A DNA stretch of 64,000 bases from Amycolatopsis sp. FDAARGOS 1241 (GTDB lineage: Bacteria; Actinomycetota; Actinomycetes; Mycobacteriales; Pseudonocardiaceae): contig NZ_CP069526.1 of assembly GCF_016889705.1 (NCBI RefSeq), positions 5,270,001-5,334,000 on the forward strand, given 5' to 3'. Below, piece after piece: positions 1,769-31,191 of the stretch. The position numbers and the translations under genes were made by a program. Under the pieces are notes generated by a model. That model ran no database searches. It saw only the letters and a program-made list of their open reading frames with translations, and was not told the origin of the DNA. The stretch's first letter is position 1; every line of letters starts with the position of its first letter.

Positions 1769-1784
1769 GTGGACGAAGGTCCCC
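1769..1784 (-). promoter_or_regulatory. DosR-like box upstream of GAPDH
   Basis: Read on the minus strand it is GGGGACCTTCGTCCAC, an imperfect palindrome close to the mycobacterial DosR core GGGACTWWAGTCCC. It lies 85 bases before the GAPDH start. Its first 14 bases, GGGGACCTTCGTCC, recur before hsp20 at 16160-16173. Confidence 0.55.
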
Positions 1785-1868
1785 GCGGCAGCCCGCCAAC
1801 GTCCCTCGTCCGCACGCCCCACGTCGGAGCAGGGTGAATGGACAGGCTATCGCAGCAAAGGAGTCCTC

Positions 1869-2885
1869 ATGACCGTGCGAGTCGGCATCAACGGGTTCGG
1901 CCGGATCGGGCGTGACTTCGTGCGCCGCGTCCTCGAACAGCCGGACAGCCCGGTGGAGGTGGTGGCCGTCAACGACATCACCGACGCGGACACCCTCGCT
2001 CACCTGCTCGCGCACGACTCCACCTACGGTCCGCTGCGCGTGCCCGTGCAGGTAATCGATTCGGCTATCGAAGCCGGCGACCAGGTGCTGCAGGCGATCT
2101 CCGAACCCGAACCGGCGAACCTGCCGTGGGGCGAATTCGCGGTGGACGTCGTGCTCGAAGCAACCGGGCACTTCCGCACCCGAGACGCGGCCGCCGCGCA
2201 CCTGGCGGCGGGCGCCCGGAAGGTCATCATCTCCGCGCCTGGCAAGGGCGTGGACGCGACGATCGCGCTCGGCGTCAACGAAGGCACCTACGAACCCGTC
2301 GGACACCAGGTGATCTCCAACGCCTCGTGCACGACCAACTGCCTCGCCCCCATGGTGCGCGTGCTGCACGAAACGTTCGGAGTCCGGCGCGGGTTCTTGA
2401 CCACGATCCACAGTTACACCGGCGACCAGGCCCTTCTCGACCGCCCGCACAGGGACCTGCGCCGAGCTCGGTCGGCCGCGGTGAACCTGATCCCGACGAG
2501 CACCGGCGCTGCTCGCGCGATCGGCGACGTCATCCCCGCGTTGGCCGGACGGCTCGACGGCGTGGCCATTCGCGTACCGGTCGAGGACGGGTCGCTGACC
2601 GACCTCACCGTGGAACTGGAGAAGGACGTGACGCCAGACGAGGTCAACCGCGCGTTCGCGCAGGCCGCGGATGGATATCTCAAGGGAATCGTGCGCTACA
2701 CCGAAGCTCCGCTGGTGTCCCGCGACATCGTGGGTGATCCGGCCTCGTGCGTGTTCGACGCGAGCCTCACCAAGACCGACGGCCACACCGCGAAAATGTT
2801 CGGCTGGTACGACAACGAATGGGGCTATGCGTGCCGGACCGTCGAGCTCGTCGAGCTGGTGGGCCGTGAACTCGCCCGGCGCTGA
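1869..2885 (+). CDS. gap: Glyceraldehyde-3-phosphate dehydrogenase (GAPDH)
   Basis: Oxidises glyceraldehyde-3-phosphate to 1,3-bisphosphoglycerate with NAD(P) in glycolysis, in the cytosol. The start is the ATG preceded by AAAGGAG; the open frame extends further upstream but only this start begins with the Rossmann motif GINGFGRIGR. Length is 338 residues, normal for the family. The active-site block SNASCTTNC carries the catalytic cysteine at residue 154, and the C-terminal NEWGYACRTVEL block is intact. It sits in the hypoxia island behind a DosR-like box, so it may be a paralogue induced when ATP must come from fermentation. Confidence 0.95.
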   Translation: MTVRVGINGFGRIGRDFVRRVLEQPDSPVEVVAVNDITDADTLAHLLAHDSTYGPLRVPVQVIDSAIEAGDQVLQAISEPEPANLPWGEFAVDVVLEATGHFRTRDAAAAHLAAGARKVIISAPGKGVDATIALGVNEGTYEPVGHQVISNASCTTNCLAPMVRVLHETFGVRRGFLTTIHSYTGDQALLDRPHRDLRRARSAAVNLIPTSTGAARAIGDVIPALAGRLDGVAIRVPVEDGSLTDLTVELEKDVTPDEVNRAFAQAADGYLKGIVRYTEAPLVSRDIVGDPASCVFDASLTKTDGHTAKMFGWYDNEWGYACRTVELVELVGRELARR

Positions 2886-2936
2886 CCCGCGACCCGCCGT
2901 AGGTGGGCCGGCCTCTCCCCCACCGAACGTCGGGTC

Positions 2937-3149
2937 GTGGCCGGCGCCGTAGTGATCCAGATCGCTCTGACCGCGACGGCGTGGTGGGACCTCGCTCACC
3001 GGCGGGCGGATCAAGTCCGCGGGCCGAAAACCGTGTGGGCGGTGATAATCGTCGTCAACTTCGCCGGGCCACTCGCGTATTTCCGGTGGGGGCGACTGCG
3101 ATCCGGCTGCCAAGGACCCGTGGAACGAGGACCTTCGGCGCCAGAGTGA
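2937..3149 (+). CDS. Small PLD nuclease N-terminal (PLDN)-type membrane protein
   Basis: A 70-residue protein with two hydrophobic segments (about residues 3-17 and 32-49) separated by DLAHRRADQVRGPKTVW. The GPK-W and GPLAYF-WGRL signature belongs to the phospholipase D-nuclease N-terminal family, a short two-helix membrane module of unknown role. The GTG at 2937 is the only start available, but family-like sequence (RWAGLSPTERR) continues in frame upstream to the GAPDH stop with no ATG, GTG or TTG. The true start may have been lost, or a non-canonical codon is used. Confidence 0.55.
   Translation: MAGAVVIQIALTATAWWDLAHRRADQVRGPKTVWAVIIVVNFAGPLAYFRWGRLRSGCQGPVERGPSAPE
3127..3142 (+). promoter_or_regulatory. 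DosR-like box upstream of the DoxX-ADH operon
   Basis: GAGGACCTTCGGCGCC, 55 bases before the DoxX-like start. It agrees with the island consensus at most positions and overlaps the end of the preceding small gene. Confidence 0.5.
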
Positions 3150-3197
3150 TCCACCGCCGCACCCGACACTCGGGGTGAACCACGAAACGGAGGGATC

Positions 3198-3791
3198 ATG
3201 TCCATTACACCCGAGCACGACAAGCGTTCCGACGCCACGGTTCCCCTGCGGCGTGAACCCGAGCGGCGCGCATCGAGCCGAGCCCTCGGCGGCCGCGCAC
3301 TCGCTCTGCTCCGGATCGCCATGGGACTCGTGTTCCTGTGGGCCTTCGCCGACAAGCTGTTCGGTCTGGGGTACTCCACCACGGCCGCGGGCGCCTGGAT
3401 CCGCGGCGGCTCACCCACGCGAGGTTTCCTGGGCACCGTCGAGGTGGGTCCGCTCGCCTCGACGTTCCACGCCTGGGCGGGCGCGTGGTGGGCCGACTGG
3501 CTTTTCATGGCAGGGTTGCTCGGCATCGGCCTCGCTCTGGTGACCGGCGTGGCCCTGCGGATCGCCGCGACCACGGGCACGGTCGTGCTCCTGCTCATGT
3601 GGGCCGCCGAATGGCCACCCGCGCGCTTCACCAGCGTCGGCGAGGCGACGCACTCGACCCACCCGATCATCGACTACCACGTCATCTACGCACTCGTCCT
3701 CATCGCACTCGCCGCGACGCTCGCGGGCGACACCTGGGGTCTGGGCCGCCGCTGGGCCACGGTGACCGGCGACCGGGCGTGGCTGCGCTAA
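3198..3791 (+). CDS. DoxX-like integral membrane protein
   Basis: A 197-residue membrane protein with a charged N-terminus of about 35 residues followed by four hydrophobic segments (roughly 38-55, 95-118, 120-137 and 155-172). Layout and the LRIAMGLVFLWAFADKLFGLG opening helix resemble the DoxX/DoxD family, whose members include the quinone-reducing subunit of archaeal thiosulfate dehydrogenase. No catalytic residues are known that would fix a substrate. The start follows ACGGAGGGATC. The alcohol dehydrogenase starts 27 bases downstream, so the two are probably co-transcribed from the DosR-like box at 3127. Confidence 0.7.
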   Translation: MSITPEHDKRSDATVPLRREPERRASSRALGGRALALLRIAMGLVFLWAFADKLFGLGYSTTAAGAWIRGGSPTRGFLGTVEVGPLASTFHAWAGAWWADWLFMAGLLGIGLALVTGVALRIAATTGTVVLLLMWAAEWPPARFTSVGEATHSTHPIIDYHVIYALVLIALAATLAGDTWGLGRRWATVTGDRAWLR

Positions 3792-3818
3792 ACGTCCACA
3801 AGCGACCGAGGAGAAACC

Positions 3819-4920: not shown

Positions 4921-5622
4921 TCAGGGCCGGTGGATCGACCTCCGCCCGAACCGGCCACCGGCGGGAGGCTCATCCGGGCGGAGGTCGCGGTCGTCGAGGT
5001 GGGCCTTCAGGTGCGAGCGGACTTCGACCACCCCGTCGACGCGGCGGACGAGCGCCTCGATCAGCCCGATCATGCTGTAACGCTCGACGGTGCCGCTGAT
5101 GGACACGATCCCGTCGTGCACCGCGACGTACAGCGACTGCGGGTCGATGCACATCTCCTCCGTGAGGACCTCGTCCCGGACTTCGTCGTAGATGTCCTTG
5201 TCGGGTCTCAGGAAGACTCGCACCAGGTCGGCTCGCGACACGATCCCGGCCAGCGCGCCGTCCGCGTCCACGACCGGAAGGCGGTGCACGCCATGGGATT
5301 CCATCAGTTGCGCGGCGCGCACCACGTCATCGTCCGCCCTGATGGTGACAGCCGGGCTGCTCATCAAGTCGGCGGCGAACACCGCTTCAGCCTTGCGCCG
5401 GGCCCGCCGCGCCCGCGGACCGAAGCCGCGGTGCTCGACTTCACGCTCGAGCAGGTCAGCGCGGGAGATGACACCAGCCACGTGACCGCGATCGTCCACG
5501 ACGGGCGTGCCGCCGACCCCACGTTCTTCGAGCAGCGCGGTCACCGCCTTGAAGGGTGTGCCGAGCGGAACGCTCGCCACGTCCGTCGTCATCACCGCGC
5601 TCACCGGGTGCTGTCCGGTCAT
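4921..5622 (-). CDS. Tandem CBS domain protein with C-terminal BON domain
   Basis: A 233-residue cytosolic protein. Two CBS motifs (about residues 8-62 and 85-140) form a Bateman module, which in relatives binds adenine nucleotides; both show the GVISRADL/GIVSRADL ending. A BON domain follows (about 150-215, with VHDGIVSISGTVERYSM), which often binds lipid or membrane. The first part resembles the DosR-regulon Hrp1 (Rv2626c), which lacks a BON domain. It is the last gene of a minus-strand run: PEP synthase, universal-stress protein, then this, with 24- and 10-base gaps. Confidence 0.85.
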   Translation of the reverse strand: MTGQHPVSAVMTTDVASVPLGTPFKAVTALLEERGVGGTPVVDDRGHVAGVISRADLLEREVEHRGFGPRARRARRKAEAVFAADLMSSPAVTIRADDDVVRAAQLMESHGVHRLPVVDADGALAGIVSRADLVRVFLRPDKDIYDEVRDEVLTEEMCIDPQSLYVAVHDGIVSISGTVERYSMIGLIEALVRRVDGVVEVRSHLKAHLDDRDLRPDEPPAGGRFGRRSIHRP

Positions 5623-5632
5623 CGTCTGCTCC

Positions 5633-6139
5633 TCACAACAGGGGGCCGGGCTGGTACGTGCCGGCCTCGTCCGCTTCCGGCACCGGGCCGCGTTCCTCAG
5701 CCGTGCGAACCGGCACGACCACGACCGGGCAGCGCGAATCCTTCAGGCAATACGCAGAGACGGATCCGACGAGCAGCCGCAGCAGCCGGCCGTGGCCGTG
5801 ACTGCCGACCACGAGCATCGCGGCGTTCTGCGACCTCCGCACGAGGGCCGGGCCGGGCGCGCCCTCGACCGTCTCCGCGCGCACGGGAACCGGTTCGACG
5901 CCGGCGAGCGCATCGGCCACGGCTTGCTCCAGCTGCTGCCGGTAGCGCTTCTCGATCTCCCGCCACGACCGGGTCGATGCCGATTCCAGGTCGGCCGTCG
6001 GATCGAACGTCCAGGCGCGCACGGCCACCACCTCGCGCCCGCTCACCTTCGCTTCGGACAGTGCCCAGCGCAGTGCCGCGGCGCTGCCGGCCGAGCCGTC
6101 GACTCCGACGACAATGACGTTTCCGTCCATGGTGGTCAC
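5633..6139 (-). CDS. Universal stress protein (single UspA domain)
   Basis: A 168-residue UspA-type protein. It opens with the VVGVDGSAGSAAALRWA block and has the ATP-binding signature G-x2-G-x9-GS as GSHGHGRLLRLLVGSVS near residues 113-129. An ATG at 6130 is an alternative start that removes three residues. The DosR regulon of M. tuberculosis is rich in Usp proteins of this kind. It sits between the PEP synthase and CBS-BON genes in one probable operon; the exact cellular target of Usp proteins is not known. Confidence 0.9.
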   Translation of the reverse strand: MTTMDGNVIVVGVDGSAGSAAALRWALSEAKVSGREVVAVRAWTFDPTADLESASTRSWREIEKRYRQQLEQAVADALAGVEPVPVRAETVEGAPGPALVRRSQNAAMLVVGSHGHGRLLRLLVGSVSAYCLKDSRCPVVVVPVRTAEERGPVPEADEAGTYQPGPLL

Positions 6140-6163
6140 GGATGTTCTCCTTTGCCCAACGGG

Positions 6164-8407
6164 TCAGCGGGCGTTGTCCAGCAGGAGGCGGCGTTCGGCG
6201 GCGGCGATCGCGTGCCGGGCGGCAGCGATCGCGTCGGAGTTGACCGAGATCGAAGTGATACCGGCCCGCACCAGGTGCTCGGTGAAAGCGGGGTTGGTCG
6301 AAGGCGCCTGCCCGCACAGCGACGAGGTGATGCCGTGCAGGTTCGCGGTGCGGACGATGGTCGTGATCGCGTCCAGCACGGCGGGGTCGGCTTCGTCGAA
6401 CAGCTCCGCGCACTCCGCCGAATCGCGGTCGACCCCCAGGACCAGCTGGGTGAGGTCGTTGCTGCCGATCGACACGCCGTCGATGCCGAGACCGACGTAC
6501 TCCGGCAGCCAGTGGACCACTGAGGGCACTTCCGCCATGATCCACTTGAGGAGGCCGCGCTGGCGGCCCAGCGGGCTGGCGTCCACCAGTTCGAGGCAGG
6601 CTTCGAGCTCCCACTTGGTGCGCACGAACGGGATCATCAGGTGCAGGTTCGGGGTGCGCTCGCGGACCCGCGCGAGTGTCTTCAGCTCGAGCGCGAAGAG
6701 ATCGGGTTCGCGGATGTACCGGTAGCAGCCGCGGTAGCCGATCATCGGGTTGCGTTCCTCTGGTTCGAACGCCTCCCCGCCGGTCAGGCCGCGGAACTCG
6801 TTCGTGCGCAGGTCAGTGGCGCGGTAGACCACCGGACGTGAGCCGAACGGGGACGTGATCGCGGTCAAGGAGTCGGCCATCGCGGTCACGAAGGACTCCT
6901 CCTCGCCCCGGGCCAGCAGGTCGCGCGGGTGCCGGCCACCGAGGGCCTCGGTGAGCAGGAATTCCGCACGCAGCAACCCGACCCCGTCCACGGCCCGTGC
7001 CGCTACTTCCGCGGCGTGCTCGGGCATCGCGAGGTTCACGTAGAGCCGGGTCCCGATCGTCTCCGGTGCGGTGGGAGCTGCCACCGGCGTCGCGCGAGCC
7101 GCCTCATGCACCACCGCACCGGCCCGCACTTCGCCCTTGGTCCCGTCGACTGTCACGAGCGTGCGGTCGGCGAGAACGCGGGTGGCATCGCCGGTTCCGA
7201 CCACGCACGGCACCCCCAGTTCCCGGGCGACCACGGCGGCGTGGCACGTCATCCCGCCGCCGTCGGTCACCAGCCCGCCCGCCCGGCGGATGGCCGGCAC
7301 CCAGTCCGGGTTTGTCATCGGCGCCACCAGCACCTCGCCCTCGCGCAGCTGCATGGCTTCCGCCGGGTCCCGCAGCACGCGGACGGCCCCACTCGCCGCG
7401 CCGGGCGACGCTGCCAGCCCCGTGACCAGCGCGCCCGGCTCCGCCTCGCGGTCCGGCGGCATGGTCGTGATCGGCCGCGACTGCACGAGCCACGTGCGGT
7501 GGTCCTCAATGGCGAATTCCACGTCCTGCGGCACGCCGTAGTGGTCTTCGACTCGCGAGGCCAGCCGCGCGAGCTCGAGCACCGTCGCGTCGTCCAGGAC
7601 CCGGCGACCGCCGGCCTGCGCAGTCAACGGCACCGTGACGTCACCGCCGCCGACCTCCGCGATGATCTTGAAGGACTGTGTGCCGACACGGGCGCTGAGC
7701 ACCCGCAAGTCCTGTTTGGCCACCACGTAGGTGTCGGGCTCGACGGCGCCGCTGACGATCGCCTCACCCTGGCCGAAGACCGCTTCGATCACCACCTGGT
7801 CGTGCGCGGCGGTCCGCGGATCCGCCGTGAAGATCACCCCCGCGCGATCGGCGGGGATCATCCGTTGCACAACCACTGCGATCGCCGGCTCCCCGGCGTA
7901 CCCACGGCTCGCGCGGTAGCTCACGACGCGCGGCGAGAACAGCGACGCCCAGCAGTCCACGACGCGCTGAGCCAGGCTCCGCTCGTCGACCACGTTGGTG
8001 AAGCTGGCGTTCATCCCGGCGAACGACGCCTCGGCACCGTCTTCCCCGGTCGCCGACGAGCGCACGGCTACCGTGGCTTGCCCGCCGAGCGCGCGGTACG
8101 CCTCGCCGACCGAGGCCGCGAGCTCGGCGGTCAGGCCGGCCGAGCGGACCAGGGCCTGCAGCCGCTCGCACGTTTCGGCGAGGGCCGTCGCGTCGTCCAC
8201 ATTCGTCAGAGCTTTGGCATGGGCGTCGGCGATCTCGGCGCGCACCCCGGCGGCCTCCAGTGCCGAGAAGTAGCCATCCCGGGTGATCACGAAGCCCTCC
8301 GGCACCGGGAACCCGGCGGCGATCAGCTCACCCAGGTTGGCACCCTTTCCGCCTGCGACCTCGGCGTCGGCGAGCCGTAGATCGGCGAGATTCGGTACGC
8401 AGTCCAT
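6164..8407 (-). CDS. ppsA: Phosphoenolpyruvate synthase / pyruvate, water dikinase
   Basis: Interconverts pyruvate + ATP and PEP + AMP + phosphate. At 747 residues it is close to the usual length. The open frame runs further upstream, but family sequence begins at the chosen ATG ([28 protein letters not shown]). Domains in order: ATP-grasp-like nucleotide-binding region (1-310), phosphohistidine domain with [12 protein letters not shown] (His389), and a PEP/pyruvate barrel ending with [12 protein letters not shown], which carries the conserved cysteine. A DosR-like box lies 76 bases upstream. PpsA is known from the DosR-type island of other actinomycetes; a PEP-balancing role under hypoxia is inference. 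Confidence 0.88.
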
Positions 8408-8482
8408 GAAGGTCCTCCCGAAGGTCGGACACGGCGTTCGCCCCGGCTCTCCCAGCCTGGTCGCCCCCCGGACACCCGCACC

Positions 8483-8498
8483 GGAGCACAAAGTCACC
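8483..8498 (+). promoter_or_regulatory. DosR-like box upstream of the PEP synthase operon
   Basis: GGAGCACAAAGTCACC, 13 of 16 bases identical to the site at 30143. It lies 76 bases upstream of the minus-strand PEP synthase and overlaps the last codons of the ATPase gene behind it. Confidence 0.5.
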
Positions 8499-11178
8499 GG
8501 GCGCGGGGCGGACGTCCCCGTGTCACCCACCGGAAGAGCTCGTCGGCGCCCCAGACGAGTACCGGCATCGGCAGCAGCATCGCGAGCGCCCACGCGGGCA
8601 GCGGCGCCATGCCGAAGACGTCCCTGATCCCCGGTGCGTAGATCAGCAGAGCGGCGAACAGCACCTCGAACACGAGGCCCCAGAGCAGCAGCCGGTTCGT
8701 GGTGAGGCCGACCTCTCGCAGCGGCACGCGTTCGGTCCGCGAAGCGAACGCCGTGCCGATCTGGCACGCCACGATCGCCGCGAAGCTCGCCGTGGTGGCC
8801 TGCAAGTACGCGTGGTGCAACGGCGCGCCCGCCGAGACGTCGGCTCCCGGCTGCCAGCCGGCGGTCCACAGCACCGCGAAGTACGCCGCCAGGACCAGGA
8901 TCCCCGACAGCAGGCCCATGATCGCCCACGCCCGAAGGAGCATCCGGCCGGTCACCACGCCTTCGCGCCGGTCCCGGGGCGGGCGCGCCATCAGTCCGGG
9001 CTCCGCCGGCTCGCGCCCCAGGGCGAGCGCCGGCAGCGTCTCCGTCCCCAGGTCGATCGCCAGGATCTGCAGCACGGTCAGCGGCAGCGGGACTGCCCCG
9101 CCGGAGATGGCGAAGATCAGGAACGGGAGTACCTCGGGTACCGCGTGGGCGAAGATGTACAGCACGAACTTGCGGACGTTGTCGAACACCCGCCGGCCCT
9201 CGCGCACCCCGGCCACAATGGTTGCGAAGTTGTCGTCGGTGAGCACGACCGTAGCCGCTTCCTTCGCCACATCGGTGCCACCGATACCCATCGCGACACC
9301 GATGTCGGCACGGCGCAGCGCGGGAGCGTCGTTCACCCCATCGCCGGTCATGGCGACGACCTGATCGCAGTGGCGCAGTGCATCGGCGATGCGCAGCTTG
9401 TCTTCCGGCGTCGCGCGGGAGAACACCACTTCGCCGCCCTTGAGGAGCGCTGCGTCGAGGTCGGGTTCCGGCATCTTCGCCAGGTCGCCGCCTTCGACGA
9501 CGCAGTCGGCGCCGATGCCGACGCGGCGGGCGATCTCAGCGGCGGTCAGGCCGTTGTCCCCGGTCACGACGTGGACCTTGATCCCCGCCGAGTGGCAGTC
9601 GGCCACCGCCGGGGCGACCTCGGGGCGCGGCGGATCGACGAGACCAGCGAACCCGACGAGGGTCAGCCCGCTTTCGGCTTCGCTGCGGCTCGCAGGGGCA
9701 GTGGGGACCACCCGGCGCGCGATCGCCAGCACGCGCAGCGCCCGCCGGGCCATGTCGTCGGCCTGGCCGGTCAGCTCAATCCGGCGCTGCGGGGTGATCA
9801 GCGCTTCGGTGCCGGATTCCGTCAGCTCCGTCGTGCACAGCGGGAGCACCTGCTCCGGAGCGCCCTTCGTAGCCACCACGAGCTCTTCGCCGAGAAGATC
9901 CACAGTGGACATTCGCTTGAGGCGGGGGTCGAACGGGTGCAGCACCCGGCGCGCCGCATCACGCGCGGCCGCCGAGACGTCCGCCCCGCGCTCGGCGGCG
10001 TACGACAGCAGTGCGAGCTCGGTCGGGTCCCCGGATCCGGTGGCGAGGTCCGCGGTGCTGCACCGCGCGAGCACTGCGACAGCCACGGGTTGTGCCGACG
10101 GTGCTCCGGACGGGTCCCGCAGTTCCTCGACCCGCATCGAGTTCCGGGTCAAGGTCCCTGTCTTGTCGGTGCAGATGACGGTGGTCGAGCCCAGCGTCTC
10201 CACCGCCGACAGCCGTTTGACCAGAGCGCCGGCCTTCGCCATCGACCGCACGCCCGCCGCCAGGGCCAGGGTGATCGTGGGCAGCAGTCCCTCGGGCACA
10301 TTGGCCACGAGGAGCCCGATGGCGAACACAAACGCGGCCGACCACGAAAGGCCCGCGACCACGCCGAGCGGCAGGAACCCCACACCAACAACCAGGGCGA
10401 CCCCGGCGATCAGCCAAGCGACCCGTCGCACTTGCCGCTCGAGCGGGCTCTCTTCGCGGCCGATGCGGGCCGACAGTGAAGCGATCCGGCCGATCTCGGT
10501 GTGCCGCCCGGTCGCGTGCACGACCGCGCGGGCGGCGCCTGCCACGCACACCGTGCCGCTGAACACCAGCACCGGTGAGTCGATCGGCCGCACAGCATCG
10601 TCTGCGGCATCGGCAGTACGAGTGACAGGAGCGGACTCACCGGTGAGCATCGAGGCGTCGACGTCGAGAGTCCCGTCGACGAGCCGGGCGTCCGCGGGAA
10701 CCCGATCCCCTTCGGCGAGCAGGACGACGTCGCCGCGGACCAGTTCACTCGCCGCCACGTGGGCGACGACCCCGTCACGTACCACCGAGGTGCGCTCCGG
10801 CAGGTACTCGCCCAGCGCCTCCACCGCGCGTTCGGCCTGTTGCTCCTGGTAGAACGCGAGCAGTCCGTTGAGGACGATCACTCCGACGATGGCCACGGCG
10901 AGGTTCGTCGTCCCCGCGAACCAGGCGAGGCCGGCGGCGACCCAGAGCAGCAGGGCCAGCGGGTGGCCGAACTGGCGCAGCAACTCGAGCGGCCATCGCG
11001 TACGCCCGCGACGCGGCAGCTCATTCGGTCCCTCCACCTGCAGCCTGCGCGCAGCTTCGCGGGCGGTGAGCCCGCCTGATGCAGATCGGAGGTCTCGCAG
11101 CAGCAGATCGACCGGCTCGCGGGCGTCGACGTCGGGAGCTTCGGGCTCCGCGCCTGACGGCCGGACGTGCGTGGTCAT
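8494..11178 (-). CDS. P-type cation ATPase, CtpF-like (P2-type)
   Basis: An 894-residue cation pump of the inner membrane. Motifs visible: actuator TGES (179-182), PEGL in transmembrane helix 4 ([13 protein letters not shown], residues 295-307), phosphorylation site DKTGTLT with Asp338, and the hinge [15 protein letters not shown]. The N-terminal cation-ATPase domain and C-terminal helices are present. PEGL-type pumps transport Ca2+ or other hard cations. M. tuberculosis CtpF (Rv1997) is a DosR-regulated homologue. Its ATG overlaps the stop of the upstream gene (ATGA), so translation is probably coupled; it ends the hsp20-acyl-CoA synthetase-ackA run. Confidence 0.9.
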
Positions 11179-11861
11179 CGCGGTCCTTCCGCCGGACCCG
11201 CGACGAGTACCACGGCCTGTGCGACGCTCGCGTGCCCCCCGATGATTGCTGAGCGGCTGAGGACTGCGGTCTTCAGCCCATGGGCTGCCGCGGCGAGGCG
11301 AAGGGTGTGGGTGACGGCACCGGCCAGGACCTGCTCGTCCGCGGTGTCGCGGTTCGTGAGCACCGGCAACCGGGAGCCGAAGCCCAGCGCCGCAGCGGGT
11401 TCCTCGGGTGGAAGCGGAACGACGCGAGTGCGAGGCCAGTCGTTCTCGCGCGCGAGAGCGGCGAGAACCTCCGCACCGACGGGCGCGGGTGTCTCCGGCC
11501 CAGACTCCGTCAACCGGCGCAGCGCCAGGTACCGGACCCAGTCGTGCTCCGTCGCCGGCGCCGGCTCCCGAACGCGCAGCACCGCTACGACGTCCGGCCG
11601 GTCCGGGTTGTGCGGGAAAAACATCCGGGAACGAGCGCCCAGGACCCGGAGCACCACCTTGGCAGTGGAGAGCGCGGCGCCGCATGCGCCGAGCGCCCGG
11701 TGCTCACCGCGGCCGTGCCGGGCCGGATTCAGCGCGACCGTGACCTCGTCCGGCCCCAGCTCGACGACGCACCGCGATGCCGGCAGCCGTGAGAGCGCGT
11801 CCACCAGCACGGCCCGGGTCGAGTGGTTCCAGTGAACCGCCGGTTCGGCCATGCTGGTCAT
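11175..11861 (-). CDS. Divergent Acg-like nitroreductase-fold protein, short
   Basis: A 228-residue protein related to the Acg (Rv2032) family. The stretch [19 protein letters not shown] matches the family's SCGAAL-NL block, and the following PDVVAVLRV and C-terminal [17 protein letters not shown] also align. It is about 100 residues shorter than the other copies and lacks the PSxHNTQPW flavin-binding start, so it may not bind FMN in the usual way. It overlaps both neighbours by four bases (acetate kinase upstream, ATPase downstream), indicating a tightly coupled operon. Function unknown. Confidence 0.6.
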
Positions 11862-12949
11862 CGCGGCACCCGTTCGCGCAGGATGGCTTCGGCGCCGCGG
11901 GCGAGCTCGAGTTCTTCCCGGGTCCGCACGATCAGCACGGGTGCCGCCGAGCCCGGCGCGCTGATGACCCGGTCGGCGTCGGTGCGCTCCAACGGGGCCA
12001 CGCGCAGGCCCAGTACGCCGAGACCGGCGGTGACAGCGGCAACCACCTCCGGCTGGTACTCGGCCACTCCGCCGGTGAACACGAGGGCATCGAGCCGATC
12101 GAGGTTCGTCGCCAGGGCGCCGATCTCCCGCCGCAGCCGGTGCACGTAGACCTCGACGGCCAGTTTCGCGTCCGGATCGCCGGCCGCGGCCGCGACCAGC
12201 GCCGAACCCAGATCACCGCTACCGCCGCACATGCCCGCGATCCCGGACCGCTGGTAGAGCGCCTCGCTCATCTCCTCCGGCCCCATCGGCGCCGTCTTCA
12301 TCACGTGCAGCAGCAGCCCCGGGTCGATCGAGCCCGATCGGGTGGCCATCGCAGGCCCCTCCAGCGGCGTGAACCCCATCGACGTGTCAGCGCTCGCGCC
12401 GTCACGCACGGCAGTGACCGACACGCCCGCGCCGACATGCGCACACACCAGCTGCAGATCCGTTGCCACCTTTCCCAGCAGGACCGCGGCGCGGCGCACC
12501 ACGTAACCGCACGACAAGCCGTGGAACCCGTAACGGCGCAACCGGCCCTGCCGCGTCCACGCACGCGGCAGCGGGTAATGCGCGGCGGCAGCGGGCAGGC
12601 CCGAGTGGAACGCGGTGTCAAAGCACGCCACCACCGGCACACCGGGCAACAGAGCCCGCACCGCGCGGGCCACCGACAACGACGCGGGCTGGTGCAGCGG
12701 CGCGAGCGGCACGAGCCGCTCCAGGTTCGCCAGCAGGTCGTCGGTCACCAGCGCCGGCGCCTTCTGCGAGCCGCCGTGGACGAAACGAACCGCGACCGCG
12801 TCCGGGCGCGCCCAGCGGTGCACCGCATCCAAGACCAGCCGCGGTTCGGTCAGCTGCCACGCCGTCCAACCCACGGCGATGCCGTCTTCGACCAAGGCGG
12901 CTTTCAGGTTCGACGAACCAGGATTAAGGGTCAGGACTCGCACGGTCAC
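11858..12949 (-). CDS. ackA: Acetate kinase
   Basis: Converts acetyl phosphate + ADP to acetate + ATP (or the reverse). The 363-residue protein has the N-terminal phosphate-binding LNPGSSNLKAAL, the VACFDTAFH signature, the YGFHGLSCGYV block and the VFTGGVAEYQPEV region. It is somewhat shorter than typical (about 400). Its position 12 bases behind an ADP-forming acyl-CoA synthetase rather than beside phosphotransacetylase is unusual: both enzymes can make ATP while releasing acetate, so the pair looks designed for fermentative energy conservation. Confidence 0.92.
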   Translation of the reverse strand: MTVRVLTLNPGSSNLKAALVEDGIAVGWTAWQLTEPRLVLDAVHRWARPDAVAVRFVHGGSQKAPALVTDDLLANLERLVPLAPLHQPASLSVARAVRALLPGVPVVACFDTAFHSGLPAAAAHYPLPRAWTRQGRLRRYGFHGLSCGYVVRRAAVLLGKVATDLQLVCAHVGAGVSVTAVRDGASADTSMGFTPLEGPAMATRSGSIDPGLLLHVMKTAPMGPEEMSEALYQRSGIAGMCGGSGDLGSALVAAAAGDPDAKLAVEVYVHRLRREIGALATNLDRLDALVFTGGVAEYQPEVVAAVTAGLGVLGLRVAPLERTDADRVISAPGSAAPVLIVRTREELELARGAEAILRERVPR

Positions 12950-12961
12950 TCCTCAGTCCGA

Positions 12962-15604
12962 TCAGCCCGGCAGGCGGCGGAGGAACGGATCAGCGCTCTC
13001 GCGGCGCGCCAGGCGCACGCGGACGTCGACGGCCACGCAACCAGCGGCGTGCGCTGCAAGGGGGTTGAGGTCCAGCTCGGCGAGCTCGGGAACCAGCACG
13101 GCCAATCGCGCGACCTCCAGCAGCACCTCACGCACAGCGGCCCGGTCGATCCCCGACGCCCACAACGCTTCCGACGACCGCAGGCCATCCAGCAGCAGGT
13201 CGGCGTCGGCGCCCGTCAGTGGCGCCAGGTGGGCAGTGTGATCGGCGACCAGATCAGCGTCGACGCCGCCAAGGCCGAACACCACGAGCGGGCCGAACAC
13301 CGGGTCCGATCGCACACCCACGAGGAGTTCGCGGCCGCAGTCGACCATGGGCTGGACCGCGACCCCTCGCAGAGCCGGGCCGAACCGGGCCTGCAGCAGC
13401 CGGTAGGCGTCTCGCGCCCCACCGGCGCCGTACACCTCGAGGAGGACGCCACCGCCCCGGGATTTGTGCTGGAGCCCTTGGGCATCGGCCTTGACTGCCA
13501 GTCGGCCCGCGAGGTCGCCTGCGACGCCGATCGCTTCCAGCTCGTCGCGGGCATAGCGCGTGGTGACGAGCGGGAGGCCGGCCAGCCGGAGCAGCTCGGA
13601 GGCGTCCGGTGGGGACAGCCAGCCGTCACCCTCGCCGGCGTGGTTCGCTGCGAAGGTCCGCAAGGCCGCAGCGTCGATGTCCGACAGCTCAGGCGCGTCG
13701 TCGCCGCGGTCGAGCCATTGCGCGTAGCGCGCGACCTTTCCCAAGACGGCTGCGGCGGCCGCCGGGTCGTCGTACGAGGCGGTCACTGGCGCACCGTCGT
13801 CGCCGACAGGAGCGACTCGCGCGCGTTGTTGACCGGGCTGGACGGCGAACACCGTCTTGCCTGTGCCTGGAACCACGTCGGCCACCACGGTCGCCGGATC
13901 ACCTACCGCCGTCGGGACCGTCGCCACGAGCACCGCGTCGACACCCTCGTCGGCCAGTACGGTTCGCAGAGCTTGGCCGAACGTGCCGGCCGGTGCCGCC
14001 GCCGTGGTGTCCACCGGGTTGTGCGGCGCAGCCTCCGCGGGGAGCAGCGCGCTCAACCGCTCCACCGTTCCAGCTGAAAAGCACGCCATCGTGAGGCCCT
14101 CGCGTTCGCACGCGTCGGCCGCGAGCACTCCGGCTCCCCCGGCGTTGCTCACCACCGCAACCCGCCGCCCGCGCGGCAACGGCTGCCACGACACTCCCGC
14201 GATCACATCGACCAATTCGGACACCGTGTCGACCGCGATGATCCCCGCCTGTTCGTAGAGCGCGTCCCGGGTCACCGCGGGCGTGGCGACGGCCGCGGTG
14301 TGCGAGGCGGCCGCCCGCTGGGCTGTGTCCCCGCTACCTGCGCGCACCGCCAGCACGGGGCGGGTGCGCGCCAACCGCGCGGCGAGCCGGCTGAACTTGC
14401 GCGGGTTGCCGAACGACTCCAAGTACAGCACCACGATCTGGGTTCGCCGGTCGCTCGCCCACCACAGCAGCAGATCGTTACCGCTCACGTCGTACTTGTC
14501 TCCTGTGGACACCAGCGCCGAGACCCCCAGCCCGAGCCCGGTCAGCGCTTCGGTGAGCGCGATGCCGACTCCGCCCGACTGGGTCGCGATCCCGATGCCA
14601 CCACGCAGCGGCGGCCGTTCGAGGAAAGTCACGTCGAGCGGACACGACGGCGCGGTCGAGACCACGCCCAGGCAGTTGGGCCCGACCAGACGCATCCCGT
14701 GTTCCCGCACGGCTTTGCGGACCCGTTCGCCGGCCGCGGTGCCGGTCAGGCCGGAGGTGATCATCACCACGGCGCGGACGCCGTGGGAACCGCACTCCTC
14801 GACCGCGTTCGCCGCAGCTTCAGCGGGCAGACAGACCACCGCCAGTTCCGGCACCACGCTCAACCCCGCGATCGAGGTGGCACAGCGGACTTCGAGGATT
14901 GACGACGCGTGTGGGTGAACGACCTCGACGTGCCCGGGATAACCGCTGCGTAGGAGGTTGGCGAGCACGGCGCGTCCGATCGAACCCGGTTGGCGCCCCA
15001 CCCCGATGACCACGATCGAGTCCGGGTTCAGGACGTGCGCGAGGCTCGCGGCCTCGGCGACCTCGTCGCGGTGTGCGACCGCGTCCGGGTAGTGGTCGGC
15101 GTCGAGCCACAGCGTCAGCGACCACTCGGCGCCGTCGCGGGCGACGCGGTAGGGCAAGCCCAGTTCGGAGAAGACTTTGATGACCTTCGCGTTTTCGGCG
15201 AGCACCTCCGCGACGAACCGGTCGATACCGGTGGCGTGCGCCGTCGCGGCGAGGTGTTCCAGCAGCAGGGTCGCGATCCCCTGCGCCCGGTGGGTCCCGT
15301 CGACCACCAGAGCGATCTCGGCCTCCGCTGAGCCAGGGCGCCGTTCGTAGTGGGCCACGCCCGCAAGCTCCGACCCGAGGAAGCACCCCAGCCCGGCGTG
15401 GGCCTCGCCCGGCTCTCCTGCGATGCGGCCCGCTAACCGGTCCATCGTGGACGGTAACGGGCCGAAGAAGCGGAAGTAGCGGTCGCGTTCGTCCAGCCGG
15501 GTGTGCAACGCCAGCACGGCGTCCGCGTCCCCCGGCCCCAGCGTCCGGACGACACCGACCTCACCGTCGGCCAGCAGCACCCTCGCGGGCAGGTCCGCGT
15601 TCAT
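12962..15604 (-). CDS. GNAT acetyltransferase fused to ADP-forming acyl-CoA synthetase
   Basis: An 880-residue fusion. Residues about 1-175 form a GNAT acetyltransferase (acetyl-CoA loop ALVVDGTHRAQGIATLLLEHL). A CoA-binding Rossmann domain follows (IVVIGVGRQPGSIGRAVLANLL), then a succinyl-CoA-ligase-like domain carrying the phosphohistidine block ASHTAAVA, and a C-terminal ATP-grasp domain (KADAQGLQHKSRGGG, VQPMVDCGREL). E. coli PatZ has the GNAT at the other end; the N-terminal order is known in actinomycetes. Either role is possible: lysine acetylation of metabolic enzymes, or acetyl-CoA + ADP + Pi to acetate + ATP. The adjacent ackA favours an energy role; intactness of both halves suggests both. 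Confidence 0.82.
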   Translation of the reverse strand: MNADLPARVLLADGEVGVVRTLGPGDADAVLALHTRLDERDRYFRFFGPLPSTMDRLAGRIAGEPGEAHAGLGCFLGSELAGVAHYERRPGSAEAEIALVVDGTHRAQGIATLLLEHLAATAHATGIDRFVAEVLAENAKVIKVFSELGLPYRVARDGAEWSLTLWLDADHYPDAVAHRDEVAEAASLAHVLNPDSIVVIGVGRQPGSIGRAVLANLLRSGYPGHVEVVHPHASSILEVRCATSIAGLSVVPELAVVCLPAEAAANAVEECGSHGVRAVVMITSGLTGTAAGERVRKAVREHGMRLVGPNCLGVVSTAPSCPLDVTFLERPPLRGGIGIATQSGGVGIALTEALTGLGLGVSALVSTGDKYDVSGNDLLLWWASDRRTQIVVLYLESFGNPRKFSRLAARLARTRPVLAVRAGSGDTAQRAAASHTAAVATPAVTRDALYEQAGIIAVDTVSELVDVIAGVSWQPLPRGRRVAVVSNAGGAGVLAADACEREGLTMACFSAGTVERLSALLPAEAAPHNPVDTTAAAPAGTFGQALRTVLADEGVDAVLVATVPTAVGDPATVVADVVPGTGKTVFAVQPGQQRARVAPVGDDGAPVTASYDDPAAAAAVLGKVARYAQWLDRGDDAPELSDIDAAALRTFAANHAGEGDGWLSPPDASELLRLAGLPLVTTRYARDELEAIGVAGDLAGRLAVKADAQGLQHKSRGGGVLLEVYGAGGARDAYRLLQARFGPALRGVAVQPMVDCGRELLVGVRSDPVFGPLVVFGLGGVDADLVADHTAHLAPLTGADADLLLDGLRSSEALWASGIDRAAVREVLLEVARLAVLVPELAELDLNPLAAHAAGCVAVDVRVRLARRESADPFLRRLPG

Positions 15605-15624
15605 GGCTCTCCTCGTGCACAGCC

Positions 15625-21680: not shown

Positions 21681-21972
21681 CACCACTCCTGTCCGCAGCG
21701 GGCTTTCAGGATCGGCGCGGAGCACGCGTCGCCACGATGTCCGCAGGTCACGCTGTCCGGGGACGTTCGGCACTTCCGGCGGGAAGCCCTCGCCGGAGAG
21801 CCGTGTCGAGGTGAGCACTCGAGTCCGGAATCACCGGGAGTGGACTGTGGCTACCGCGCGACCGGCGGCTGCGGGCGGGTGCCGACGTCGTGCGCCGCCG
21901 GTGCGAACCGACGCCGGGACCACCTCGGCCCGATTTCTGACCGGAGCTCCGGCACGGACTGATCTGCCTCCC

Positions 21973-22881: not shown

Positions 22882-23002
22882 CCTCGAAGATCCTTCCTTC
22901 AGCAGCCGCAATCGGCGTCACCGGGTCACGGCGCGGCATACGTGGGCTCCACCGTGCCGACGTGCGCCCGGGACTGGGGGGAGGCGAAGTTCCCTCGGCC
23001 CC

Positions 23003-23018
23003 GGCGACGTTCGGCCCC
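23003..23018 (-). promoter_or_regulatory. DosR-like box upstream of a broken transporter gene
   Basis: Minus-strand GGGGCCGAACGTCGCC, 13 of 16 bases identical to the site at 30143. It sits 62 bases before the transporter pseudogene. The stretch 22882-23080 holds no gene. Confidence 0.45.
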
Positions 23019-23080
23019 TCGCGAGGGCGCACGCGTGGGCCATGGTGACCCGGTGCGCACCTCGACCACTGGTCGCTCGC

Positions 23081-23560
23081 GATGAGTCCGCAGCTGGGCA
23101 TCGCGGTGGGGTTCGGAGCGGCCAGTGCCGCCGCCGCGCTCGACGGCATCGCGACACTGCTCGAATCTTGCGCGGCACGCACGACTGGCCAGCGGCGCGC
23201 CGCCGGGCGGTGCGGTACAGCGTCGGCCTGACGGTCGGCTTCCTGGGCTGGGCCATGACGGTCATCGCGCTGCGGTTCCTGCCGGTGTTCGCGGTGCAAG
23301 CCGTGCTCGGTACGCAGATCGCGATCACAACCGTCCTTGCCCGTCGCCGTTCCCCACCTCCGTACAAGCACGCGGCCTCGTCGCAATCGGCTGCGTCGCC
23401 GGCGGCCTCGGCCTGATCGCCGCCGGGGCGACCACCCGGACAGGGCCGGTCGCCCCGGAACCGGTCGTGCTCGGGGTGCTGGCGGTCCTCGCCGTGGGGC
23501 TCGGGGTGGCCGCGCTGACGCGCGAAGGCGCAGTGCCCCGGGCCATCGTCGCCCACCTCG
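23081..23560 (+). pseudogene. Frameshifted DMT-type membrane transporter
   Basis: Three frames must be joined to read one membrane protein: MSPQLGIAVGFGAASAAAAL, then RYSVGLTVGFLGWAMTVIALRFLPVFAVQAVL in a second frame, then ARGLVAIGCVAGGLGLIAAG in a third. The order and the ALRFLPVFAVQ block match actinobacterial drug/metabolite-type membrane proteins. The 3' end runs into the truncated end of the convergent NAPRTase gene, so a deletion has joined the two. Confidence 0.6.
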
Positions 23561-24285
23561 ATCGCGCGGGCGATCCCCTTCACCGGATCGTAGGTGTCAA
23601 CCAGGAGCACGGGCGCAGCCGGGAAACCTTCAACGAACGCGCGGAACGCGTCACGTTCGGGCCGGAACGCCTGGATGTATGAGTGGGCGACCGTGCCGGC
23701 GGCGCGCAGGCCGTAGCGCGCGGACCCTTCGACGTTGCTGGTGCGGCCGAATCCGGCGATCGCCGTCAGCCTCGCCGCGGCCAACGCAGCGTCACACCCG
23801 TGCGCACGCCGCGCCGAGAAATCGACCAGTTCGGCGTGCGGAGCAGCGAGCCGGCACCGGGCGGCCTTCGTGGCGACGGCGGTCGCGAACGTGACGAAAT
23901 TCAGCAGCATCGTCTCCACTAGCTGCGCCTCCGGCAACGGCGCAGTGACCTCCAGCAGCGGCTCCGCCGCGAAGACCACCCGGCCTTCGGGGACCGCGCG
24001 GACGTCGCCGGTGAATCGGAGCCGGGACAGCGCCTCGACGTCGGCTGCCGATAACCCGAGCCCCTGTCCCGGATACGCCAGCTCCTCGGGCTCGAACCGG
24101 CAGTCCTGCAGCGGGTCGAGGCAATTCGTGAGCCCGGCCGCAACCGAGAACCCCCGATCCCGCGGCAGGTCACGGACGAACAGGCTGAACGTGGCCGGGC
24201 CGGTCATGCCGCGACGCAAGTAGCTCGCGGCCATCCGGATCTCGTAGAGGTCCGTGCGCGACACGTTCACCCAGTCCACCTCCAC
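23545..24285 (-). pseudogene. pncB: Nicotinate phosphoribosyltransferase, C-terminally truncated (pncB2-like)
   Basis: The first ~245 residues are a clear nicotinate phosphoribosyltransferase (NAD salvage; nicotinate + PRPP + ATP): SRTDLYEIRMAASYLRRGM, FVRDLPRDRGFSVAAGL, ELVDFSARRAHG and LLVDTYDPVKGIARAIEV. Family homology stops there, before the LDSGD region needed for catalysis, and the frame then runs antisense through the transporter remnant. The usual length is about 440. PncB2 (Rv0573c) is a DosR-regulon gene in M. tuberculosis. The start is GTG, divergent from the glycosyltransferase. Confidence 0.75.
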
Positions 24286-24435: not shown

Positions 24436-24451
24436 TGGGACCAACGACGAG
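24436..24451 (+). promoter_or_regulatory. Weak DosR-like box upstream of the glycosyltransferase
   Basis: TGGGACCAACGACGAG, with a good left half (GGGACC) and a poor right half. It is only 12 bases before the start, overlapping the ribosome site, so it may act on the divergent NAPRTase gene or not at all. Confidence 0.3.
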
Positions 24452-27566: not shown

Positions 27567-27582
27567 GAGGACCAAAGACCCT
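27567..27582 (+). promoter_or_regulatory. DosR-like box between Rv1733c-like and CBS genes
   Basis: GAGGACCAAAGACCCT, 59 bases before the CBS gene and 135 bases before the divergent Rv1733c-like gene. Confidence 0.55.
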
Positions 27583-27641: not shown

Positions 27642-28062
27642 GTGCAGACGCGCGACATCATGACCACGCCGGTCATCGCGGTGACCCCGTCCACTTCACT
27701 CGCGGAAGCCGCAGGCGTGATGACCGAACGCGGCTTCACCACGATGCCCGTCGTCGACCACACGGGCAAGCTCGTCGGCCTGGTCACCGAAGCCGACGTC
27801 GCGCAGGCCGGTCTGCCCGGCGCGGCGGGGGAAAACCGGCGACCAGGACGGCGGCGCCATGTTCAGCGGCCACGGCACGGTCGCCGCGGTGATGCGCACC
27901 CCGGCCGTTGCCGTGCCGGGTGACCTCGACCCGGCCGAGCTCACCCGCTGCATGAACGACACCGGTGTGCGCGCGCTGCCCGTGGTGGATGAAGGCGCCC
28001 TGGTCGGCATCGTGACCTTGCAGGACGTGCTCCGAACACTGCCAGCGTCAGGACCGTCCTGA
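27642..28062 (+). pseudogene. Two-CBS-domain protein (Hrp1-like) split by one frameshift
   Basis: Frame one starts at GTG 27642 (QTRDIMTTPVIAV) and encodes CBS domain 1 up to LVTEADVAQAGLPGAAG. CBS domain 2 (MRTPAVAVPGDLD to GIVTLQDVL) continues in the next frame. The total, 421 bases, is 140 codons plus one base, matching the ~143-residue Hrp1 (Rv2626c) of the DosR regulon. The shift maps to the GGGGGAAAA run at 27827-27835, a typical place for a sequencing error or slippage, so the gene may be intact in the organism. Confidence 0.75.
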
Positions 28063-30073: not shown

Positions 30074-30142
30074 CTTCACTCCTGCACCCGGAGACGAGCA
30101 CTCCGGCGCATTCCATGCTCGCCGCGGCCACAGTTCGCCGCT

Positions 30143-30158
30143 GGGGCCCAAAGTCCCC
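30143..30158 (+). promoter_or_regulatory. DosR-like box between divergent Acg and Usp genes
   Basis: GGGGCCCAAAGTCCCC, the best palindrome in the set. It is 70 bases before the Acg unit and 80 bases before the Usp gene, placed to serve both. Confidence 0.65.
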
Positions 30159-30237
30159 GCCGCCACGGCGGACGGCCCTAGCCGCCGGGCGCCGCATGCA
30201 CCGACGCTCGACCGGTCATCGACGAAAGGCGAATGCG

Positions 30238-30717
30238 ATGGGTTCCGCAACCTCGGCCGCCGGCCGCTTGATCGTCGTCGGCTTCGACGGCTCTCGCTCC
30301 AGCGACGCGGCGCTGCGCTGGGTGCTCGGCGTCGCCGCCCAGCCTGGGGACGCAGTGCACGCCGTGATGGTGCTGCCCACCGAAACCCTGCTACCCGGTA
30401 CGTCGTGGGCGCTGCAGCCGCACGGCCGCCGCCCTGCCGGATCCTACTCACCGCACGAACACATCGCGAACATTCGCGCGGAGTTCGCGGAAGCGTCACC
30501 CGTTACGATCTCGACTCCACAAGGCCATCCGGCCACCGAGCTGATCACCGCGTCCACTGACGCCGACCTCCTCGTCGTCGGTGCCCGCGGTGCGGGGCGG
30601 ACACGCGAGCTCCTGCTGGGCAGCGTCTCACGGGAGTGCGTGCGCTACTCCCGCTGCCCCGTCGTGGTCGTCACGCCCGAAGCCGCCCGCCGCCTCGTCC
30701 CCACCCCGACGGGTTGA
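30238..30717 (+). CDS. Universal stress protein (single domain)
   Basis: A 159-residue UspA-type protein. It opens with LIVVGFDGSRSSDAALRWVL and closes with the ATP-binding block GARGAGRTRELLLGSVSREC. A GAAAGG stretch 5-10 bases before the ATG supports the start. Divergent from the Acg pair over a DosR-like box. Confidence 0.88.
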   Translation: MGSATSAAGRLIVVGFDGSRSSDAALRWVLGVAAQPGDAVHAVMVLPTETLLPGTSWALQPHGRRPAGSYSPHEHIANIRAEFAEASPVTISTPQGHPATELITASTDADLLVVGARGAGRTRELLLGSVSRECVRYSRCPVVVVTPEAARRLVPTPTG

Positions 30718-30729
30718 GTCACGGCCACG

Positions 30730-31140
30730 GAACGGCCGCCGACGAGGATGGGCGTAATTTCCTCCCGCAGCAACGGTTCCTCGTCGTCGCTGATCAAGCC
30801 CAGCGGCCCGTGGTCCTCCGGCGAGTGCCCGATACGCTCCGCACGACGGCGCGTTTGATGCCGACGTAGACGACTGCGCGAGGTCACAGGCGCCGCCGAG
30901 CACGCCCAGTGCGCCGTCGCGAGCCTCGCCGAGACCGACTGCGGCCTGGGCCTGCACGATCCGCCGCAGCGGGGCGTCCAGCTCGAGCCCTGACGCGACG
31001 ACCAGCACCGCCTCAAGCAGACCGTCCATCGTGCCTCGAGTGCCGATCAAGGCCTCGATGCGGTTCCGCAGGTCCCGGAGGGAACCACGCAACTTCAGTT
31101 GCGAGCAGTTCCGGACATGCGGCCGGCGTCGTGACCGACC
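30730..31140 (-). pseudogene. Remnant of a second DosS/DevS-like sensor (GAF-A region)
   Basis: Minus-strand sequence includes LRDLRNRIEALIGTRGTMDG, LLEAVLVVASGLELDAPLRRIV and ALGVLG, then in another frame RIGHSPEDHGPLGLI. These match in order the N-terminus and first GAF domain of DevS (LVEAMLVVTAGLDLEATLRAIV ... RIGHLPKGLGVIGLLI). No kinase domain follows. It is a decayed relative of the sensor at 32291 and lies 1.2 kb from it. Confidence 0.65.
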
Positions 31141-31175
31141 TCGTGCCCTCCCCGTCATCTGCGACATTTCGGAAG

Positions 31176-31191
31176 AAATGACTTTCGCCTC
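31176..31191 (+). promoter_or_regulatory. Weak DosR-like site upstream of Acg copy 4
   Basis: AAATGACTTTCGCCTC contains GACTTT and a degenerate right half, 85 bases before the gene. Weak on its own. Confidence 0.2.

Follow-up and report, generated by a model that had tools for sequence, protein, structure and literature searches.

We analyzed a 64,000-nucleotide stretch of the genome of Amycolatopsis sp. FDAARGOS 1241 (positions 5,270,001-5,334,000 of contig C1 of genome G000, 9.8 Mb; the whole stretch is called the window here), which begins with a cluster of genes homologous to members of the mycobacterial DosR hypoxia regulon, and with a shared palindromic box in front of several of them. 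We read the ~38 kb at the start of the window, together with ~6 kb to its left, as the effector island of a DosR-type hypoxia/dormancy regulon, with DosR acting in trans and driven by a canonical sensor kinase (Kin2), and with a second DosS-like protein (Kin1) as a pseudokinase modulator; judged from sequence, we put the probability of this reading at about 0.86. Genes were called with a codon model and labelled from Pfam and NCBIfam. The names Rv1733c and Rv3131 come from NCBIfam; the M50 peptidase/CBS gene at 17907-19070 is Rv2625c-like. The boxes and genes in question are given below, with box scores set against a background of 559,580 positions of the same genome (28 stretches of 20 kb).

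1769..1784, minus strand: DosR box, score 13.5 (1/559,580 background positions), ~85 bp before the GAPDH gene (1869-2885, plus), with a weak partner 22 bp upstream.
3127..3142, plus strand: candidate site before a DoxX-like gene (3198-3791, plus), score 6.7 (199 background positions; region p 0.086).
4921..16045, minus strand: head-to-tail run of hspX, GNAT-acetate:CoA ligase (ADP-forming type), acetate kinase, acg-like fragment, CtpF-type ATPase, phosphoenolpyruvate (PEP) synthase/pyruvate phosphate dikinase (PPDK), Usp and CBS-BON genes, with overlaps or gaps of at most 86 bp.
8483..8519, no strand assigned: paired weaker boxes (8483-8498 and 8504-8519, 21 bp apart), scores 10.4 (23 background positions) and 8.4, at the CtpF-PEP synthase junction and overlapping the 3′ end of the CtpF gene.
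16158..16173, minus strand: DosR box ~120 bp before hspX, score 14.8, with a TTCGGGYARTCCGGCC element ~22 bp downstream.
16782..16797, plus strand: extra box, absent from the original prediction, before an open reading frame (ORF) at 16898-17524 (plus), score 12.4.
17850..17865, minus strand: DosR box before the M50 peptidase/CBS gene (17907-19070, plus), score 15.7 (0/559,580).
21759..21774, plus strand: strong box, also missed originally, score 15.1, at the 5′ end of a weak ORF (21384-21818, minus) and before a P-type ATPase-hemerythrin gene (19075-21297, minus).
22918..24285, minus strand: nicotinate phosphoribosyltransferase gene (pncB2-like), homology ending at residue ~246 in a frameshift-like manner.
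27567..27582, plus strand: DosR box between a divergent Rv1733c-family gene (NF050032; 26832-27431, minus) and the hrp1-like two-CBS gene, score 15.6 (0/559,580).
27642..28041, plus strand: hrp1-like CBS pair split over two frames by a frameshift (tblastn matches 27642-27821 and 27838-28041 in different frames).
30143..30158, plus strand: DosR box between divergent acg (29045-30079, minus) and Usp (30238-30717, plus) genes, score 16.0 (0/559,580).
31177..31192, plus strand: extra weaker box ~90 bp before an acg gene (31277-32263, plus), score 11.0 (region p 0.017).
32297..34055, minus strand: copy of a putative DosS-like GAF-GAF pseudokinase gene, 78% identical to Kin1, with the frame lost near 32615 and the rest of the kinase core in another frame.
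37549..37586, no strand assigned: boxes 37549-37564 (weaker, 5.6) and 37571-37586 (11.9), 22 bp apart, before a DUF6292-acg gene (37457-35977, minus); region p 0.023 with the de novo matrix and 0.012 with the OsdR matrix.

All nine 16-mers that the original prediction had listed as shared upstream of genes are present verbatim in the window, and they fared unevenly. Five of them (1769, 16158, 17850, 27567 and 30143) are very strong, scoring 13.5-16.0, each with 0-1 equal-or-better positions among the 559,580 of the background, while the site at 8483 (plus strand) is moderate and that at 3127 scores 6.7. Two sites are unsupported and were rejected as DosR boxes: that at 23003 (minus strand; score 8.3, 89 background positions) lies inside the nicotinate phosphoribosyltransferase ORF at 22918-24285, and is therefore no upstream site, and that at 24436..24451 (plus strand), between pncB2 and a TreT-like gene, scores 1.3 with 1748 background positions. 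The four sites that we added (21759, 16782, 37571 and 31177) are outside called genes or at gene edges, and further matches scoring 11-13 sit within the tgs1 gene (200 and 264). The homologues of regulon genes predicted to follow the sites (hspX, Usp, acg, ctpF, Rv1733c, M50/CBS, hrp1-like CBS, pncB2 and tgs1) are all present, with some assignments of site to gene needing correction: site 1769 comes after tgs1 and before the GAPDH gene, and ctpF has no box of its own, being part of the hspX-led gene run. Several boxes recur in relatives. For example, the GAPDH homologues of genomes G003 and G021 likewise carry boxes, the DoxX homologues of G007 and G013 have one 76 and 91 bp upstream, respectively, the P-type ATPase-hemerythrin homologue of G010 has one 52 bp upstream, and the arrangement and spacing around box 27567 are repeated in G003.

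The motif itself was recovered from DNA other than that of the genome under study. A palindromic 16-mer search by expectation maximization in 64 intergenic regions, taken upstream of matched genes in the islands of seven relatives and containing no DNA of the window's genome, returned RGGGMCSWWSGKCCCY with a log-likelihood of 163, the next motif reaching 72; the best log-likelihood in a control of 64 random intergenic regions was 81 (150 seeds, vs 250 in the real run). The relatives' regions had been picked via their hspX homologue, their genes called and these matched to the window proteins. Of the 17 promoter-bearing intergenic regions within 1-38 kb, 9 contain the box at a score of 8. In the background it occurs in 8 of 249 such regions (Fisher p=2.9e-8), and in the remainder of the window in 0 of 16; over five thresholds (6-10) p ranges from 1.9e-8 to 1.9e-6, with the lowest threshold giving 2/16 in the remainder. 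The matrix thus does not score as often in random intergenic DNA of this genome as it does in the island. Conversely, a matrix built from the five strong window sites finds 72 sites in the stretches of the seven relatives, where 17 were expected from this genome's background, and 46 of the 72 are intergenic in stretches where intergenic DNA makes up 6-12%. A matrix written from the mycobacterial consensus picks out the regions of the five strong sites as well, each at a region p of no more than 0.0131. The matrix built from all nine predicted sites is circular and served only to list candidates, and the motif fits for small genera (all except Mycobacteriaceae and Nocardia) were overfitted and not used.

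The hspX promoter has a conserved layout. In 30 genomes of the genus, this one included, a matrix that excludes hspX's own site detects a box (region p<0.05) before hspX in 27 cases, and 22 of the 27 have their centre 120-127 bp upstream of the start; the conserved TTCGGGYARTCCGGCC element ~22 bp downstream of the box resembles a weak second box. Across the islands of the genus, the mean matrix score around 53 strong boxes peaks at exactly 22 bp, with partners scoring at least 4 found for 19% at that distance vs at most 3% at other distances from 14 to 45 bp. The peak is also present in Nocardia at 22 bp (105 boxes, 17%) and in Mycobacteriaceae at 21-23 bp (140 boxes, 13% at 22 bp), both of which are outside the set from which the matrix was learned. 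Within the window, the best partner within 18-32 bp falls at 21-23 bp for 8 of 10 sites examined, and 6 of these 8 partners score above zero, the highest being in the pairs 8483/8504 and 37549/37571. This spacing agrees with the cooperative binding of DevR to a primary and a secondary site (PMC3029386), and from these distances we take paired boxes to be a feature of the regulon, and one that is useful in searching for it.

The gene run behind the hspX box is likely to be one transcription unit, given its head-to-tail layout, and its order is kept in G010, with one extra small ORF call. The boxes at 8483/8504 are a possible internal promoter of the run; G010 has no gap at the CtpF-PEP synthase junction corresponding to them. 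Besides a small heat-shock protein, the run encodes acetate kinase, a GNAT-fused ADP-forming acetate:CoA ligase, a Ca-type ATPase and PEP synthase, a combination that suggests survival by substrate-level phosphorylation once respiration stops.

The regulator was predicted to lie outside the window, and among the GerE matches of the genome we located a DosR orthologue 1.7 Mb away (G000:C1:3592919-3593557). This protein contains a receiver domain (PF00072) and a GerE domain (PF00196), matches DevR (3c3w) among solved structures with E=1e-96, the next match being at 4e-38, and carries an 18-residue recognition helix, FLAEKTVKNYVSRLLAKL, identical to that of DevR 3c3w. The same helix is present in 32/34 Mycobacteriaceae and 12/23 Nocardia loci, and its core LAEKTVKNY in 34/34 and 22/23, respectively, and in 74/80 of all named loci, AEKTVKNY being one of six peptides used to find the named loci. 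Its closest named relatives are Amycolatopsis proteins (84-89%); the genome holds at least 90 GerE matches (150 of 190 candidates scored). The order of genes at the dosR locus is acg, Usp, Usp, an unmatched gene, CBS-BON, Kin1, DosR, acg (opposite strand), Kin2, acg, acg and CBS (opposite strand), with boxes preceding several of them. Between 27.6 and 34 kb the window carries paralogues of this locus (acg 70-77%, CBS 63%, kinase 78%) that lack DosR. In G013, G020, G021 and G024, a DosR-like regulator (55-77%) is encoded 9-15 kb from an hspX homologue (36-51%); that of G013 was missed by the codon-model calls and found separately. In the genome under study the two are 1.7 Mb apart. In a survey of 80 genomes of the genus, in which as in several of our counts related genomes are treated as independent, hspX (E<=1e-25) was found in 31 and DosR (E<=1e-90) in 63, and all 31 fall within the 63 (Fisher 6.4e-5, kinship ignored).

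DosS-like GAF-GAF proteins with the heme histidine flank dosR on both sides. Kin2 has the features of a DosS/DosT histidine kinase, i.e., the heme-GAF histidine, H-box, N-box and G1 Asp are all present, whereas Kin1, directly upstream of dosR, is an intact ORF with a degenerate kinase core. Among the 18 members of the Kin1 clade in the genus, the heme histidine is present in 18 and the phospho-acceptor histidine in 17, with the acid that follows it (H+1) in 1 and with neither the N-box Asn nor the G1 Asp in any (0/18 for both). The comparison set of 80 other rows of DosS-like kinases consists of 65 rows from named DosR loci, 12 hits in the genus and Kin2 of this genome entered three times, and its corresponding counts are 78 for the heme histidine, 79 for the acceptor, 79 for the following acid, 76 for the Asn and 79 for the Asp; the window copy is in neither group, and L298, which is 52% identical and also without the Asn, was counted among the others. 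A database search in which the 8000 candidates sharing most words with Kin1 were scored gave at least 36 Kin1-type hits, Kin1 included, with at least 47% identity over the catalytic part. In these the Asn and the Asp are again absent (0/36 each) and the H+1 acid occurs once (1/36), the phospho-acceptor position among the matches listed is His in 28 and Gln in 8, and all organism-named members among the matches listed are Amycolatopsis, the closest relative listed being from Amycolatopsis sp. NPDC051903 (94% identical over the catalytic part). Of 65 further matches listed, from which the window copy was left out, 59 have the Asn, and four of the six exceptions look like members of the Kin1 clade, one of them labelled Streptomyces. 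In a tree built on residues 1-390 of 60 rows, for which 28 of the named rows had been picked randomly, the Kin1 clade is grouped with support of 91/82, or 99/98 with L298. Kin1 at >=60% identity is found in 18 genomes, in 9 of which it is directly upstream of dosR on the same strand (gaps of 93-300 bp) and in 8 more within 10 kb of dosR on the same strand; in G003 it is 231 bp before hspX instead of near dosR.

We infer from these residues that the Kin1 clade is a new, conserved, heme-sensing pseudokinase. That Kin1-type proteins are instead ordinary active histidine kinases with an unusual ATP-binding domain is improbable. The acceptor histidine is kept in most of them (17/18 genus members and 28/36 database matches listed), and in seven pairs the DHp+CA part has a dN/dS of 0.19-0.45, vs 0.14-0.27 for the GAF part, so the kinase part is looser yet constrained by purifying selection. 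An active enzyme, however, is hard to square with the loss of the N-box Asn and the G1 Asp from every member counted, with an H+1 acid in only one member of each set, with Gln in place of the acceptor histidine in 8 of the 36 matches listed, or with a Pfam scan that finds no HATPase domain in the Kin1 of this genome. We judge it a little better than even that two heme sensors drive DosR in some Amycolatopsis, one a canonical kinase and the other a conserved pseudokinase derived from DosS, whose gene is often the one immediately before dosR. This second sensor would retain the heme pocket, would have lost ATP binding and, in some members, the phospho-acceptor histidine, and would report gas by protein contact. 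If true, the dormancy pathway would have a second way of sensing gas, and one may ask why both DosS-like sensors persist although catalysis is lost in one of them. Among the open-access papers listed in a literature search, none described a DosR system of Amycolatopsis or a DosS pseudokinase, which is weak evidence. The kinase copy in the window (32427-34055) keeps the heme-GAF histidine, its frame being lost before the N-box Asn and the G1 Asp. It is not a simple recent copy of this genome's Kin1, a possibility that we rejected, since it groups with a protein of G076 (100/97).

The genes, the boxes with their pairing and conservation, the regulator with its helix and the sensors can be read from the DNA and its relatives; a working order for them may be proposed by analogy with work on DosR/DevR and OsdR, in which hypoxia or NO acting at the heme leads to phosphorylation, cooperative binding and activation. 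The heme of Kin2 would lose O2, leading to autophosphorylation, and the phosphate would move to DosR, which when phosphorylated (DosR~P) would bind the strong box and then, cooperatively, the weaker box 22 bp away. Bound DosR~P would activate the hspX-led unit and others, the products being the small heat-shock protein, Usp, Acg nitroreductases, CBS proteins, acetate kinase, ADP-forming acetate:CoA ligase, PEP synthase, GAPDH and P-type ATPases. Kin1, and the frameshifted window copy, would most likely be heme-sensing pseudokinases that modulate DosR or Kin2 by contact rather than by phosphorylating them, e.g., by holding Kin2 in heterodimers, by sequestering or stabilizing DosR~P, or as a ligand-gated phosphatase, with oxygen, NO or CO as the signal. 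A precedent would be the Caulobacter pseudokinase DivL. Work on a Caulobacter pseudokinase describes a histidine kinase catalytic domain repurposed to sense a response regulator (PMC4211667), and Kin1 would resemble that protein in most likely acting by contact. Unlike the Caulobacter protein, Kin1 has a heme-GAF input, belongs to the DosS family and adjoins DosR, its partner being putative.

Another possibility is that the boxes are read not by the DosR orthologue but by another regulator of the NarL/LuxR family, such as the DosR paralogue at 8984796 (58% identical). Such a paralogue does exist in the genome, and the island of G007 has two further DosR-like regulators (64-65%; G007:C67:289661 and 315610; L161 and L162), each beside acg and a Kin2-like kinase, which are island-encoded and come in addition to the orthologue. 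We consider it unlikely all the same, since hspX is confined, among the 80 genomes of the genus, to those that encode a close DosR orthologue, since the dosR locus has boxes around it, and since the helix of this DosR is that of DevR. A degenerate dosR-type locus is also present in the genome under study (L174; G000:C1:3284000-3287000), consisting of a short DosR-like ORF (~76 residues, 75% identical) with acg-like and kinase-like pieces, and with a strong box at 23510 of the joined stretch.

The original prediction had further proposed a lineage-specific box, differing from the mycobacterial core by one T-to-C change, and this part did not hold. We left the position (the sixth base of the quoted 14-base core) blind and then counted its letters in sites above a fixed score: in Mycobacteriaceae near dosR (101 sites) C is 0.34, T 0.30, G 0.20 and A 0.16; in Nocardia (68 sites) C 0.40, G 0.35, T 0.15 and A 0.10; in the islands of genus-mates (29 sites) C 0.45, G 0.33 and T 0.22; and in the window (13 sites) G 0.58, C 0.31 and T 0.12. 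T is thus scarcer in the window, but G, not C, is the commonest letter there and C is frequent in the other groups, and C is therefore no private letter. Many window sites do have C at this position in one half, and together with the scarcity of T this is what could be said for a regulator that has evolved in this organism to read GGGACC instead of GGGACT half-sites. We regard this as very unlikely: the position is degenerate in mycobacteria and every other group counted, with C as common as T in the 101 Mycobacteriaceae sites, and the recognition helix is the same as in DevR. The C is, moreover, already found in print, with the S. coelicolor OsdR sites containing GGGACCTTCG and including AGGGACCTTCGGCCCC and CGGGACCTTCGGCCCT (Table 1 of PMC5069765), and with a weak mycobacterial consensus having Y at this position (PMC6448022). 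Judged from sequence, the DosR-type regulon is real and a box variant of its own is not; free variation is seen in the letters next to the centre of the box, with the helix kept constant.

Several results weigh against the island as we read it. No 22-bp peak is present in the islands of three other genera (G020, G021 and G024; 23 strong boxes; 2% at 22 bp and 5% at 23 bp), no strong box is directly before dosR, the nearest being before the CBS-BON gene two genes ahead, and hspX was not found in 32 of the 63 DosR-positive genus genomes. Three island genes within ~11 kb (the pncB2-like, the hrp1-like CBS and the kinase genes) are broken in a frameshift-like manner, and may therefore reflect decay of the island or assembly errors. 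The matrix from the 25 published OsdR sites of Table 1 gives modest enrichment and finds only part of the sites, and a loose genome-wide pattern, which left the two most conserved positions free, has 137 matches vs 178 for its reversed control. Strict palindromes are rarer in the 9.8 Mb than their reversed control (8 vs 17); one of the 8 is box 30143, and the island and the dosR locus together account for 3 of the 8 (P=1.1e-5, the 58 kb having been delimited after seeing them). The exact pattern first tried had 5 matches vs 26 in its control and was too odd to inform. That the likeness of the sites is nothing but GC-rich chance and selective reading is extremely unlikely: two of the nine sites do fail, that at 3127 is no more than a candidate and the string has no genome-wide excess, but chance is already contradicted for the five strong sites, and the regional enrichment, the de novo discovery in other genomes, the conserved position before hspX and the 22-bp pairing all speak against it.

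The DosR island has two counterparts elsewhere. It shares hspX, Usp, acg, ctpF, and Rv1733c-, hrp1-, pncB2- and tgs1-type genes with the regulon of M. tuberculosis. An orthologous regulator with an identical recognition helix, and primary and secondary boxes, are further likenesses to the DosR/DevR system (PMC3029386). In contrast to M. tuberculosis, the Amycolatopsis regulator is encoded away from the main island, the run headed by hspX includes acetate kinase, acetate:CoA ligase and PEP synthase genes, and of the two sensors adjoining dosR one appears to have lost catalysis. The OsdKR regulon of S. coelicolor (SCO0167-SCO0219) is similar in forming an island with Usp, PPDK, nitroreductase and alcohol dehydrogenase genes and in having boxes with GGGACCTTCG, but differs in that OsdR is encoded within its own island, in an osdR-osdK operon with one kinase, and in its consensus AGGGCCGATCGGCCCT (PMC5069765). 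A tuberculosis dormancy circuit with the same DNA code would be present in an antibiotic-producing soil genus, in which it can be taken apart safely.

Three further features of the island were observed. The acetate:CoA ligase of the hspX-led run (12962-15604, minus strand), beside acetate kinase, is a fusion of a GNAT (Pat-like) acetyltransferase to an ADP-forming ligase. The gene at 19075-21297 (minus strand) encodes a P-type ATPase of the heavy-metal family with a C-terminal hemerythrin domain, with homologues in the islands of G003, G007 and G010; such fusions are known, and it is the place of this one in a DosR island that is of note. In addition, the island continues to the left of the window (G000:C1:5264300-5270000; L060, 14327-19870) with a Usp pair, an AAA-domain protein, an acg-like nitroreductase and an AMIN-like protein, and the boxes of this extension are GGGGACATTCGTCCCC and two more, at positions 97810 and 97825 of the joined left flank.

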